Shown: positions 16,670 to 53,130 of the stretch, one piece after another
Layout: every line of letters starts with the position of its first letter
How positions within the stretch are numbered: the stretch's first letter is position 1
Origin: Frigoriglobus tundricola
GTDB lineage: Bacteria; Planctomycetota; Planctomycetia; Gemmatales; Gemmataceae
Length of the DNA: 64,000 bases
Direction of reading: 5' to 3'
NCBI RefSeq assembly: GCF_013128195.2
Contig: NZ_CP053452.2
Location: 4,154,001-4,218,000 of the forward strand
Notes under the pieces: generated by a model
What the model was told of the DNA's origin: nothing
Database searches by the model: none
Seen by the model: the letters and a program-made list of their open reading frames with translations, nothing else
Program-made: the position numbers and the translations under genes

Positions 16670-17323
16670 ATGCTGCACGTCGCGCTGTGGGAGCCCGAGA
16701 TCCCGCCGAACACCGGGAACGTGGCGCGCCTCTGCGCCGCGACCGGCACGCGCCTGCACCTGATCGGCCGCCTCGGTTTCCGGCTCGACGACCGCTCCCT
16801 GCGTCGCGCCGGGCTGGACTACTGGCACGCGGTCGATGTGGTGCGCCACGTCACGTTCGAGGACTTCGAGCGCGCGATGAGCGAAGGACCTACCCCCCCG
16901 GTCCCCCTCCCTGGAGGGAGGGGGGAGAAAGAACCCACCCCCAGCCCCTCCCTCCAGGGAGGGGAGCAAGACCTCCGGAGTTCGGTTGCCTCGAGAGAGT
17001 CGCAGGAGGCTGATCGGCCCGTCACCCCCTCCCTTCAGGGAGGGGGCTGGGGGGTGGGTTGTCCTTCAGGGAGGGCGAACGGTCTCCGCCTCTGGTGCGT
17101 GGAAACCCCGGCCGAGCGGGCGTACACGCGGGCCAATTTCGCCGATGGTGATTGCTTGCTATTCGGAAACGAGTCGAGCGGGCTCCCGCCGTCGGTGCGC
17201 GAGCGGTACGCCGAGCGGCTGGTGGGCATCCCGATGCTCACCGGCGCCGTGCGAAGCCTCAACCTCGCTACGGCCGTCGGGATCGTTTTGTACGACGCTT
17301 TGCGCCGCCTACACGACTGGTAG
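16670..17323 (+). CDS. trmL: tRNA (cytidine/uridine-2'-O-) methyltransferase TrmL-like, with in-frame repeat insertion
   Basis: A SPOUT-fold methyltransferase for tRNA wobble nucleotide 34. Family motifs: MLHVALWEPEIPPNTGNVAR at the start, GLDYWHAVDV, LFGNESSGLP and the knot loop PMLTGAVRSLNLATAVGIVL. E. coli TrmL has about 157 residues; this has 217. The excess is one block after FERAMSEG that reads PTPPVPLPGGRGEKEPTPSP ... VTPSLQGGGWGVG, encoded by CCCCTCCCT/AGGGAGGGG palindromes at about 16893-17072. The family sequence resumes at NGLRLWCVETPAERAYTRAN. The insertion lies in a surface loop before the SAM-binding half and keeps the frame. ATG 16670 is chosen by homology over GTG 16622. Confidence 0.85.
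   Translation: MLHVALWEPEIPPNTGNVARLCAATGTRLHLIGRLGFRLDDRSLRRAGLDYWHAVDVVRHVTFEDFERAMSEGPTPPVPLPGGRGEKEPTPSPSLQGGEQDLRSSVASRESQEADRPVTPSLQGGGWGVGCPSGRANGLRLWCVETPAERAYTRANFADGDCLLFGNESSGLPPSVRERYAERLVGIPMLTGAVRSLNLATAVGIVLYDALRRLHDW
16893..17072. repeat. Composite palindromic repeat (CCCCTCCCT/AGGGAGGGG family) inside trmL
   Basis: Three hairpin cores of the type CTCCCT-NN-AGGGAG lie within 180 bases, joined by CACCCCCAGCCCC and GGGGCTGGGGGGTGGG arms. The stretch encodes PTPSPSLQGGE ... TPSLQGGGWGVG. The same arrangement, with a related spacer, occurs inside the winged-helix gene at about 34145-34285 and, without coding, at 53005-53130. This is a mobile or formerly mobile palindromic element. 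Confidence 0.8.
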
Positions 17324-19208: not shown

Positions 19209-20367
19209 CCCCGGCAAATAATTTTATCATTAACCTGATGCGCAATAGTTTACTTTTGGATGGAGGAAGTAGCTCATCACATGTTTGGGTAGCATCAGGA
19301 GCTTGTGCATGAAGCGTTGGATTCGCGAGCGCAGGGTTTTGCTCGTGTCGGGCAAGCCGGCGTCATGCACCTGCCCCTTCAGGTCGTTGTTGAGATACTC
19401 GTCGGGGTTCAATTCGGGACTGTACCGGGGCAGATAAAACACGGCGAGCCGATCCTCATGCTGTTGGACCCAAGCGACGACCGCATCCTTGGCGTGGGCG
19501 GGCAAGTTGTCCACGATCACGAAGATCGTACCCGGCACGGTCGTCAGCAACTGCTTCAGGAACGTGATGAACCGCTCGGCCGTCATCGTGCCGGAATACG
19601 TCAGGAACCGCACATCGCCCGTGTTACTGATCCCGGAGACCATGTTCATCCGGATGTGCGGATCGGGAACCTCGATCGTCGCCCGTTGGCCCTCGCGGGC
19701 GTACCCGTAACCGGGATACGCGTCGGCGGCCGTCCCGGTCTCATCGCACCAGAACATGGTGGCCCGTTCCGCCCGAGCCAGCTTTTCAATGGCCGGATAC
19801 GTCTGCTCGAGCCACTCACGCACCTCGTCGGGATCTTGCTTGCGGGCGTGGCGGGACGGCTTCTTGGCCGTATAGCCCCAGCGCCGCAAGTATTCCCCCA
19901 CGGTGCGAATCGGCACCCGGAGCCCGTACTCGTTGAGGATCAGGTCGCGAACCGCGCGACGGTTCCACACGGGCGCGGCGATCCCCAGATCCGACGGGCT
20001 CTTGGTGTCGAGCAGTAGTTGCAGGTGGGCCCCTTGCTCGTCGGAGAGGGTGCGCCCGGTTCCCACCGGTCGCCCGGTGCGCTCCTGGGGCAGGGCCTGC
20101 AGCCCACCCGCCGTGTAGGCCGTCCACCAGCGCGACACGGTTTCACCCGCGACACCCAGCAACCGGGCCACATCGGCTTGCGAGAACCCGGACTCGATCC
20201 CGTGCAACGCGCGCAGGCGCAACGCCTGCAGGACTTCGTCGGACAGCCCACGAGAATCCGGCAATGTGATCGCCATGACGCAGCCGCTCAGCGGACGATG
20301 GTGAGACCGATCGGGGCCACTACGAGGCCCCTTTTATGTTACACCTTGAGCAACTTCCTTGCCGAGG
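19209..20367 (-). mobile_element. IS630-family insertion sequence, 1159 bp
   Basis: The ends are CCCCGGCAA (from 19209) and, on the other strand, CCTCGGCAA (from 20367), an imperfect terminal inverted repeat continuing for about 17 bases (CCYCGGCAANNAANTT). A TA flanks each side (19207-19208 and 20368-20369), the target duplication typical of IS630/Tc1-mariner elements. The outer flanks GTTAT and ATAAC show that the empty site was the palindrome GTTATTAATAAC. One intact transposase gene fills the element. It splits a kinase-WD40 gene in frame, so insertion looks recent. Confidence 0.92.
19230..20276 (-). CDS. IS630-family transposase
   Basis: The 348-residue protein starts with a helix-turn-helix (SQADVARLLGVAGETVSRWW), has the Leu/Arg-rich second DNA-binding region (WNRRAVRDLILNEYGLRVPI), and the DDE catalytic triad: D178 in FWCDETG, D256 in VIVDNLPAH, and E293 in SPELNPDEYLNNDLK. 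These are IS630 hallmarks (x-x-x-D-E, D-N-x-x-x-H, x-P-x-L-N-P-x-E). The gene appears intact from ATG to stop, so the element may be active. Confidence 0.95.
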   Translation of the reverse strand: MAITLPDSRGLSDEVLQALRLRALHGIESGFSQADVARLLGVAGETVSRWWTAYTAGGLQALPQERTGRPVGTGRTLSDEQGAHLQLLLDTKSPSDLGIAAPVWNRRAVRDLILNEYGLRVPIRTVGEYLRRWGYTAKKPSRHARKQDPDEVREWLEQTYPAIEKLARAERATMFWCDETGTAADAYPGYGYAREGQRATIEVPDPHIRMNMVSGISNTGDVRFLTYSGTMTAERFITFLKQLLTTVPGTIFVIVDNLPAHAKDAVVAWVQQHEDRLAVFYLPRYSPELNPDEYLNNDLKGQVHDAGLPDTSKTLRSRIQRFMHKLLMLPKHVMSYFLHPKVNYCASG

Positions 20368-33870: not shown

Positions 33871-34710
33871 TTAACCGCGAAGCGAAGCGTAGTAGGCGAT
33901 CCCGTGGCCGATGAGCAGGGCGTATTGCGGTTCCGGCAGGGCGTAGAGCGGCCCGGTCCACGCGGGCAGCGAGACCGCGCCGTCGGCGCACAACTGCCGG
34001 AGGCAGTCGTGGAACTCGCCGATCGTGAGCGCGGTGTCCCGCGCGAGGGCGCGGAACAGGTCCGGGAGCGTGCAGTCCGTGGGGCCGTTGTGGCCCGCGA
34101 GGTGCGCGCGGACCGCCGGCGCGAGGTCGGGTGCGGGAAGAAGACCCACCCCCCGGCCCCCTCCCTGAAGGGAGGGGGTGAACTCGCGCGACGCCTCCCT
34201 TGGCCCCACGCAGGTACTCGAGTTCCGGGGGTCGGGCTCCCCTCCCTTTAGGGAGGGGCTGGGGGTGGGTTCTTCGGGGCCCGGGGGGGTGGGCCTCGCG
34301 ACCCGCGCCGCGGTCACGTTCGGCAGCACGCGGGCCACGGCGTCCTTGAGCCCGTGCAGGCCGTCCGCCATGCGGCGGGCGGTGGCGAGGAGTTCGCTCA
34401 CCTCGCCCTGGCGCGCCTCCAGCACGCGCACGAAGTCTTCGAGCACCTGCTTCGGGTTCACCGCGGCGAGCAGGAACTCCCAGCCCTTGTCGGACAGGCC
34501 GTACAGGTCGCGCGGCGCCTTCCCCCTGGTGTCGGCAGCGACCACGCGGACGAGATCGTCGGCGAGGCACTTCTGCGCGGCGGGCTTGGCGGCGGCGGCA
34601 TTGGGGAACAGGCCGGCCTCGGTCTTCGTGCCGTAGAGCGGCAGGCCGTTCGGCTCGGCGGCGACGCGGGTGAGGGCGTCGAGGATCAGGTGCGTGAATT
34701 TGTCGGCCAC
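33871..34710 (-). CDS. Winged-helix-like protein with in-frame palindromic insertion, partner of the P-loop ATPase
   Basis: A 279-residue protein with GTG start at 34710. Residues 1-75 contain a winged-helix-like module (KCLADDLVRVVAADTR, RDLYGLSDKGWEFLL), then a helical/coiled segment (VLEARQGEVSELLATARRMA). Residues about 142-185 read PTPPGPEEPTPSPSLKGGEP ... EFTPSLQGGGRGVG, the translation of the same CCCCTCCCT/AGGGAGGGG composite palindrome found in trmL. A second module follows (FRALARDTALTIGEFHDCLR, LPAWTGPLYALPEPQYALLI, GHGIAYYASLRG). It is co-transcribed with the ATPase. No known function. Confidence 0.65.
   Translation of the reverse strand: MADKFTHLILDALTRVAAEPNGLPLYGTKTEAGLFPNAAAAKPAAQKCLADDLVRVVAADTRGKAPRDLYGLSDKGWEFLLAAVNPKQVLEDFVRVLEARQGEVSELLATARRMADGLHGLKDAVARVLPNVTAARVARPTPPGPEEPTPSPSLKGGEPDPRNSSTCVGPREASREFTPSLQGGGRGVGLLPAPDLAPAVRAHLAGHNGPTDCTLPDLFRALARDTALTIGEFHDCLRQLCADGAVSLPAWTGPLYALPEPQYALLIGHGIAYYASLRG
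34145..34285. repeat. Composite palindromic repeat inside the winged-helix gene
   Basis: Two hairpin cores (CCCTCCCTGAAGGGAGGG near 34170 and CCCTCCCTTTAGGGAGGG near 34250) are joined by a spacer that encodes EPDPRNSSTCVGPREASREF, related to EQDLRSSVASRESQEADRPV at the same place in trmL. So the two intragenic copies share one composite structure and are read in the same frame. Confidence 0.8.
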
Positions 34711-34844
34711 GACTTCCGCTTCCGTGCGGGCGGGTGGAACGGTTCGGGAGAGATGTTAGGCGCAACCGAGCCGCGGTTGCAACCCCGACCCGGGCGCGTC
34801 ATGATTGGCGCTGTGATCCCACGGACCTTCGCAGGAGTACGGAA

Positions 34845-52976: not shown

Positions 52977-53004
52977 CGCGGGCCGGGTACGCATGAGTCG
53001 AAGA

Positions 53005-53130
53005 ACTCACCCCCAGCCCCTCCCTGAAGGGAGGGGAGTCAGACGAAGAGCCCACCCCCAGCCCCTCCCTGAAGGGAGGGGAGTCAGAAGGCTCCCCTCC
53101 CTTCAGGGAGGGGCTGGGGGTGGGCTCTTG
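53005..53130. repeat. Three copies of the CCCCTCCCT/AGGGAGGGG palindrome, intergenic
   Basis: CACCCCCAGCCCCTCCCTGA plus AGGGAGGGGAGTCAGA occurs twice in tandem (starting near 53008 and 53053), followed by an inverted copy (CTCCCCTCCCTTCAGGGAGG ... CTGGGGGTGGG). The unit is the same as in trmL and the winged-helix gene. It lies just after the secreted coiled-coil gene and could also end its transcript. Confidence 0.88.

Follow-up and report, generated by a model that had tools for sequence, protein, structure and literature searches.

Palindromic repeats known from within genes

The best-known in-frame palindromic inserts are the Rickettsia palindromic elements (RPE), reportedly described by Ogata in 2000 and 2002. 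According to the parts of a 2024 MITE review that deal with them, these are ~150-bp palindromic repeats of several families that are found in frame in unrelated genes and code for a peptide in one frame; the same parts call a Rickettsia-like process in other prokaryotes conceivable (PMC10969869). Three further types of repeat are relevant: (i) REP dimers, which occur within ORFs of several genera, with different REPs located at nearly one position of recB in two species of Xanthomonas (PMC3733652); (ii) REPINs, which consist of two inverted palindromes and a spacer and are present in many copies per genome (PMC3116915); and (iii) enterobacterial RU elements, which are MITE-like repeats with open frames that are located inside genes (PMC2759123).

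The element described here was found in a window of 64,000 nucleotides from the genome of Frigoriglobus tundricola (G000; other genomes of the genus are designated accordingly). An earlier note on this DNA had likened it to the RPE, and the likeness holds for behavior. As far as the review passages describe the RPE, both are palindromic, lie in frame in unrelated genes, and can code for a peptide in one frame; the G000 elements belong to another phylum and probably differ in sequence. The same passages contained no report of unlike palindromes filling one loop in different species. The G000 elements resemble the intragenic REPs, as these are presented in the passages cited, in sitting inside ORFs, and the unlike REPs at about one recB site are a further parallel. 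However, the GTAG or CGTC ends that define the REP superfamilies in those passages of PMC3733652, which do not mention Gemmata, are not found in the G000 consensus ends GAAGAACCCACC and GGTGGGTTCTTC. REPIN-like features in G000 are the pair of inverted REP-like palindromes separated by a spacer and the many copies, whereas the search for a RAYT (Y1_Tnp) gene with the repeats on either side was negative. RU elements, judging by the passages on them, share the MITE-like nature and the open frames in genes but differ in sequence and host. Among the matches listed in searches of the open-licence PMC literature, we found neither inserts of such a kind in Gemmataceae nor unlike palindromes that share protein loops. 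In-frame palindromic inserts are a known kind, represented by the RPE and the intragenic REPs; new here are their scale in free-living planctomycetes, where they are now seen in many conserved enzymes, and the repeated occupancy of loops by unlike families. Related species act as natural replicates in which the enzyme and the loop are the same and the insert is different, and two questions can now be tested: what kinds of loop accept long insertions that are disordered, and whether the formation of new protein segments from small mobile elements is a regular process.

The insert in TrmL

The trmL ORF of the window (16670 to 17323, forward strand) encodes 217 residues and is open across the insert. 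Alignment with the insert-free TrmL of G004 (151 residues), to which its flanks are 92% identical, revealed 66 extra in-frame residues (residues 72 to 137; nucleotides 16883 to 17080), in agreement with the approximately 60 reported in the earlier note. The enzyme is thus split into an N-terminal half (residues 1 to 71; 16670 to 16882) and a C-terminal half (residues 138 to 217 and the stop codon; 17081 to 17323). The TrmL profile TIGR00185 matches both sides in two stretches (E value of 6.8e-45), of which the first covers residues 1 to 71, and the C-terminal half has a SpoU/TrmL match. The total score of 152.7 bits is below the curated cutoff of 190.6 since the insert splits the match. Residues that are invariant across an alignment of 30 TrmL sequences were kept on both sides, and the methyltransferase motifs are intact, as had been claimed. 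No second TrmL was present among the G000 matches listed, the others falling on the insert part.

The insert contains the three exact CTCCCT-NN-AGGGAG cores noted previously (16907 to 16920, 16948 to 16961, and 17029 to 17042) and, in addition, a half-core at 17063 to 17075. Its palindromic nature is real, but instead of a single element with three hairpins we found a composite: (i) a partial copy that comprises a 5' end, matched at 16888, and the first hairpin (16883 to 16927, forward strand; GAAGGACCTACCCCCCC...AGGGAGGGGGG); (ii) a complete two-hairpin element of 137 nt (approximately 16928 to 17064, forward strand), whose two cores are 81 nt apart and whose closest copy elsewhere in the genome is 89% identical over 132 nt; and (iii) a 3' remnant with the half-core CCTTCAGGGAGGG (17063 to 17080, forward strand; repeat family D2). 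The corresponding RNA folds very stably (-130.5 kcal/mol, z score of -4.0), and the comparison with noncoding RNA families gave only chance-like matches below the gathering thresholds. The insert peptide alone had no match on plasmids at an E value of 0.01 with the low-complexity filter on and none among PDB chains; the whole TrmL matched 61 plasmid records, which judging by their names are mostly ordinary TrmL.

A structure model based on the 30-sequence alignment predicts a normal TrmL fold in which the insert forms a low-confidence loop. Averages over ten-residue blocks were 79 to 98 outside the insert, 68 at residues 71 to 80, and 41 to 57 (pLDDT) at residues 81 to 140, and the segment is placed between a helix (63 to 72) and a strand (141 to 144). 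The best PDB matches of the model were TrmL/YibK-type methyltransferases (5co4_A, 4jal_A, and 1j85), with a TM score for 5co4_A of 0.92 by target length and 0.65 by query length. The insert is accordingly predicted to be a disordered stretch. The model, one of the checks proposed in the earlier note, agrees with its expectation that the protein would still fold with a loop insertion.

Alignment with insert-free relatives was another of these checks, and among the 19 genomes of the genus in which TrmL was compared, the insert is absent from 10 (G004, G005, G008, G009, G011, G012, G013, G014, G015, and G017). In four genomes (G000, G001, G003, and G006) this loop contains an insert that keeps the frame. 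Counting against the earlier reading, the G010 insert causes a frameshift and introduces a stop; this may be an assembly fault, as the G010 assembly contains N runs within the QueG and KdtA inserts, but there is no N in its TrmL insert. Elsewhere, the contig of G018 stops within trmL, with an element adjoining the C-terminal half, G002 has a longer loop that is nonpalindromic, and no TrmL was among the matches listed for G007 and G016. A metagenome-assembled genome of the Gemmataceae (L172, JAIEQN010001020.1), drawn from 80 of 589 relatives, adds a fifth in-frame case, in which a different hairpin-bearing insert (LPSPLEGEGG...PLPSREGG) occupies the same loop; self-complementarity over this whole insert was not significant, being reached by 7 of 200 shuffles. 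The G006 insert has full-length relatives of up to 94% identity in its own genome, whereas outside G006 the ~44-bp ends are 93 to 100% and the full length 70 to 74% identical; that of G001 has full-length relatives of 74 to 84% in G001, G004, and G016 and of 73 to 75% in G003 and G018 (all among the matches listed). The TrmL, QueG, and KdtA defects of G010 (L008, L313, and L337) reflect either gene disruption or misassembly of C-rich hairpins.

The element family and its reading frame

The core CTCCCTNNAGGGAG has 153 sites in G000, compared to 0 for a reversed control pattern, which excludes chance. Enrichment within the window is weaker, with 8 sites (up to 2 mismatches) versus 2.7 expected and 1 of 100 shuffles reaching 8. 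Neighboring cores are spaced by 78 to 84 nt in 28 of 47 cases, and 23 full copies were found, 20 of which could be oriented, giving a consensus of 137 nt from GAAGAACCCACCCCC to GGTGGGTTCTTC. The element thus consists of two hairpins in inverted orientation over ~137 bp, with the ends GAAGAACCCACC...GGTGGGTTCTTC. Its pattern matched 2 of 61 family genomes (G000 and G002), and 4 of these 61 belong to the genus. With regard to a target site duplication, as in MITEs, no flanking consensus was visible beyond the element's own GAAGA.

To classify 84 sampled element clusters of G000, we used a codon model trained on the ORFs of that genome. Coding sequence on the same strand was found on both sides of 29 clusters, on one side of 39, and on neither side of 13, and another 3 lay between opposite strands. 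The 29 flanked clusters comprised 19 that were in the same frame and open, 4 in the same frame with a stop, and 6 in a different frame. Conservation of the frame in 23 of 29 exceeds the expected one-third (P = 5e-7), as does the figure of 19 of 29 (P = 4e-4). With looser limits, 29 clusters were in frame and open in 27 G000 ORFs. Except for TrmL, which was not counted, 18 of these ORFs were scanned, and 17 matched a known family, including QueG, KdtA, Lnt, GlpK, NifS-like desulfurase, aldehyde dehydrogenase (ALDH), SbcC, FwdB, HpnE, PxpC, TreY, and Pnkp; three paralogues with a PSD1 domain are interrupted at about the same position. The exception, with no NCBIfam match, is a second ORF of the window, delimited by the codon model (33874 to 34713, reverse strand), which contains an element in frame and open at 34139 to 34276 (cores at 34161 and 34242). 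In the relatives, the clusters in frame and open amounted to 12 of 27 in G001, 13 of 17 usable in G006, 6 of 11 usable in G004, and 1 of 20 sampled in G002, which has the same element type. When the four were pooled, 34 of 41 were in the same frame (2 with a stop) and 7 in a different one (P = 9e-11). Judged from the sequences, with TrmL insert-free in 10 genus members and in-frame elements in 27 G000 ORFs, these data support the earlier reading that planctomycete genomes host a protein-tolerated palindromic element.

The matched ends of the in-frame copies in G000 share one phase, EEPTP...GVGS (19 of 19 5' ends and 15 of 15 3' ends, both lists including one gene twice). Among the 20 full copies, the frame used is open in 18 and the other five frames in 10, 10, 10, 6, and 4. 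Copies outside the in-frame list are open about as often (12 of 14), indicating that openness is a property of the element. In G006 the frame used is open in 25 of 26 strand readings, compared to 2 and 1 for the others. A second phase is also used in G001 (3 of 9 matched 5' ends) and G004 (2 of 6). Stop codons thus account for a large part of the phase, although perhaps not entirely in G000. Strict targeting of a codon phase was also considered and was judged to be at least partly a stop codon effect.

Shared loops and the origin of their inserts

In addition to TrmL, 7 of 13 sampled in-frame genes of G006 have a G000 insert at about the same place, namely, KdtA, Pnkp, GlpK, ALDH, Lnt, QueG, and the 2085454 ORF, with offsets of up to ~20 residues. 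A rough estimate of what chance would give is ~0.05, assuming some 7,000 genes. Further loops are shared by G000 and G001 (HpnE and SMC), G000 and G004 (an ABC ATPase), G004 and G006 (one gene), G001 and G002 (one gene), and G001 and G004 (two genes). At the loops common to G000 and G006, each insert belongs to the family of its own genome. The inserts at two G001-G004 loci are related by descent (scores of 199 and 215 versus 75 to 178 and 80 to 171), and not every shared loop therefore represents a new landing. The QueG loop, searched in 12 genus genomes and readable in ten, contains the general element type in G000, G001, G004, G006, G008, and G010 (with stops and an N run) and unlike palindromes in G002, G009, and G011, and is empty in G005. 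For KdtA, the anchors were found in 13 of 19 genomes (G001, G004, G012, G015, and G017 were unread, and G016 had no match); the loop is filled in G000, G003, G006, G008, G013, and G010 (N run, different frame), holds unlike palindromes in G009 and G014, and has little or no insert in G002, G005, G007, G011, and G018. The five unlike occupants (L316, L320, L318, L342, and L344), with arms such as GCGGAATTC, GGGATTC, and GACACGGGG, are strongly self-complementary (reached by 0 of 200 base shuffles), in contrast to two empty loops; the KdtA inserts of G003, G008, and G013 and the QueG insert of G008 also exceeded 200 shuffles.

We consider it probable that the trmL insert is a tolerated, nonautonomous palindromic element that entered trmL and that, with others, lands repeatedly on tolerant loops. 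The evidence at the sequence level consists of the repeat family, the frame, the insert-free orthologues, the intact TrmL motifs, the many in-frame copies, and the reuse of loops. A REPIN/MITE-like element of a family private to the lineage would have entered trmL, probably by transposition, and would have been retained because it can be read through without a stop, because its length puts the downstream half back in frame, and because a loop can accommodate a hydrophilic, disordered segment with little damage; the insert would then be translated within a working enzyme. Such elements would land widely, selection purging the copies that break the frame and retaining in-frame copies in tolerant loops, and whichever family is active in a lineage would land repeatedly on this limited set. 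The composite inserts of TrmL, KdtA, and Pnkp in G000, in which an older-looking 5' hairpin lies beside a full G000-type element, suggest that landing sometimes occurs in or beside an older copy. Several findings speak against this reading: of the 29 flanked clusters, 6 are in a different frame and 4 contain a stop, most of the 84 clusters lack coding sequence on at least one side, the TrmL of G010 is broken, only 1 of 20 sampled G002 clusters is in frame and open, no mobilizer could be linked to the elements, and two of the G001-G004 inserts are inherited. A more far-reaching version, which we put forward tentatively as possible rather than probable, is that a limited number of protein loops in this genus repeatedly receive palindromic mobile elements that have several unrelated origins and are near-palindromic linkers with the same readable frame on both strands, and that each lineage refills these loops with its own family. 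Loop insertions in housekeeping enzymes would then be replaced in the manner of transposons, with the enzymes still in use, and the sites may be chosen, through a target or an older copy, and not merely spared by selection.

A serious rival, which we judge plausible but on balance doubtful, is that each loop was colonized once, in an ancestor, and that gene conversion or reinsertion later swapped in the family active in the lineage. The older-looking hairpins in the three composites and the descent of the G001 and G004 inserts at two loci would fit it, as would the slightly higher similarity of the orthologous G000-G006 inserts when gene flanks were left untrimmed (P = 0.0024). However, this similarity vanishes once the flanks are trimmed (P = 0.41 for 7 of the 8 pairs; ALDH was excluded since trimming of its G000 insert was not possible), the QueG and KdtA loops are occupied by unlike palindromes in G002, G009, G011, and G014 and are empty in other members, and the tree, with its many weak nodes, provides a hint only and is too weak for a decision. 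It is unlikely that sites are picked at the DNA level by their sequence instead of by protein tolerance: the recurrence of the same loops, the three PSD1 paralogues, and the element-end-like GAACCTACCCC at the site in the insert-free G013 TrmL are in its favor, but the flanks show no consensus besides GAAGA, and one loop is common to unlike palindromes. Inactivation of trmL, with a frame open by chance, is still less probable. GC-rich DNA is often open and the TrmL of G010 is broken, but the window TrmL retains flanks 92% identical to an insert-free homologue, has no second copy among the matches listed, and shows an in-frame pattern that recurs in many conserved genes. Least credible of all is that the ribosome skips the insert or that the RNA loses it; the very stable hairpins might permit this, but neither the kept length nor the open frame, both of which are seen, would then be needed.

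Several other observations concern the element and its surroundings. The GAACCTACCCC in the insert-free trmL of G013 (L006) lies at the insertion point and may be a deletion scar or a target. A three-core cluster at 53000 to 53130 of the window (cores at 53020, 53065, and 53097) has coding sequence on one side only, and the ORF at 19230 to 20276 (reverse strand) may encode an IS630-type DDE transposase. A Y1_Tnp/RAYT protein as mobilizer was unsupported, with an element within 1.5 kb of only 1 of 7 Y1_Tnp loci in G000 and no Y1_Tnp match in G008, which has related repeats. In G002 (C1:1396500-1443500; L297 and L298), palindromic cores are densely arrayed over ~45 kb, far more densely than elsewhere in that genome among the sites listed.
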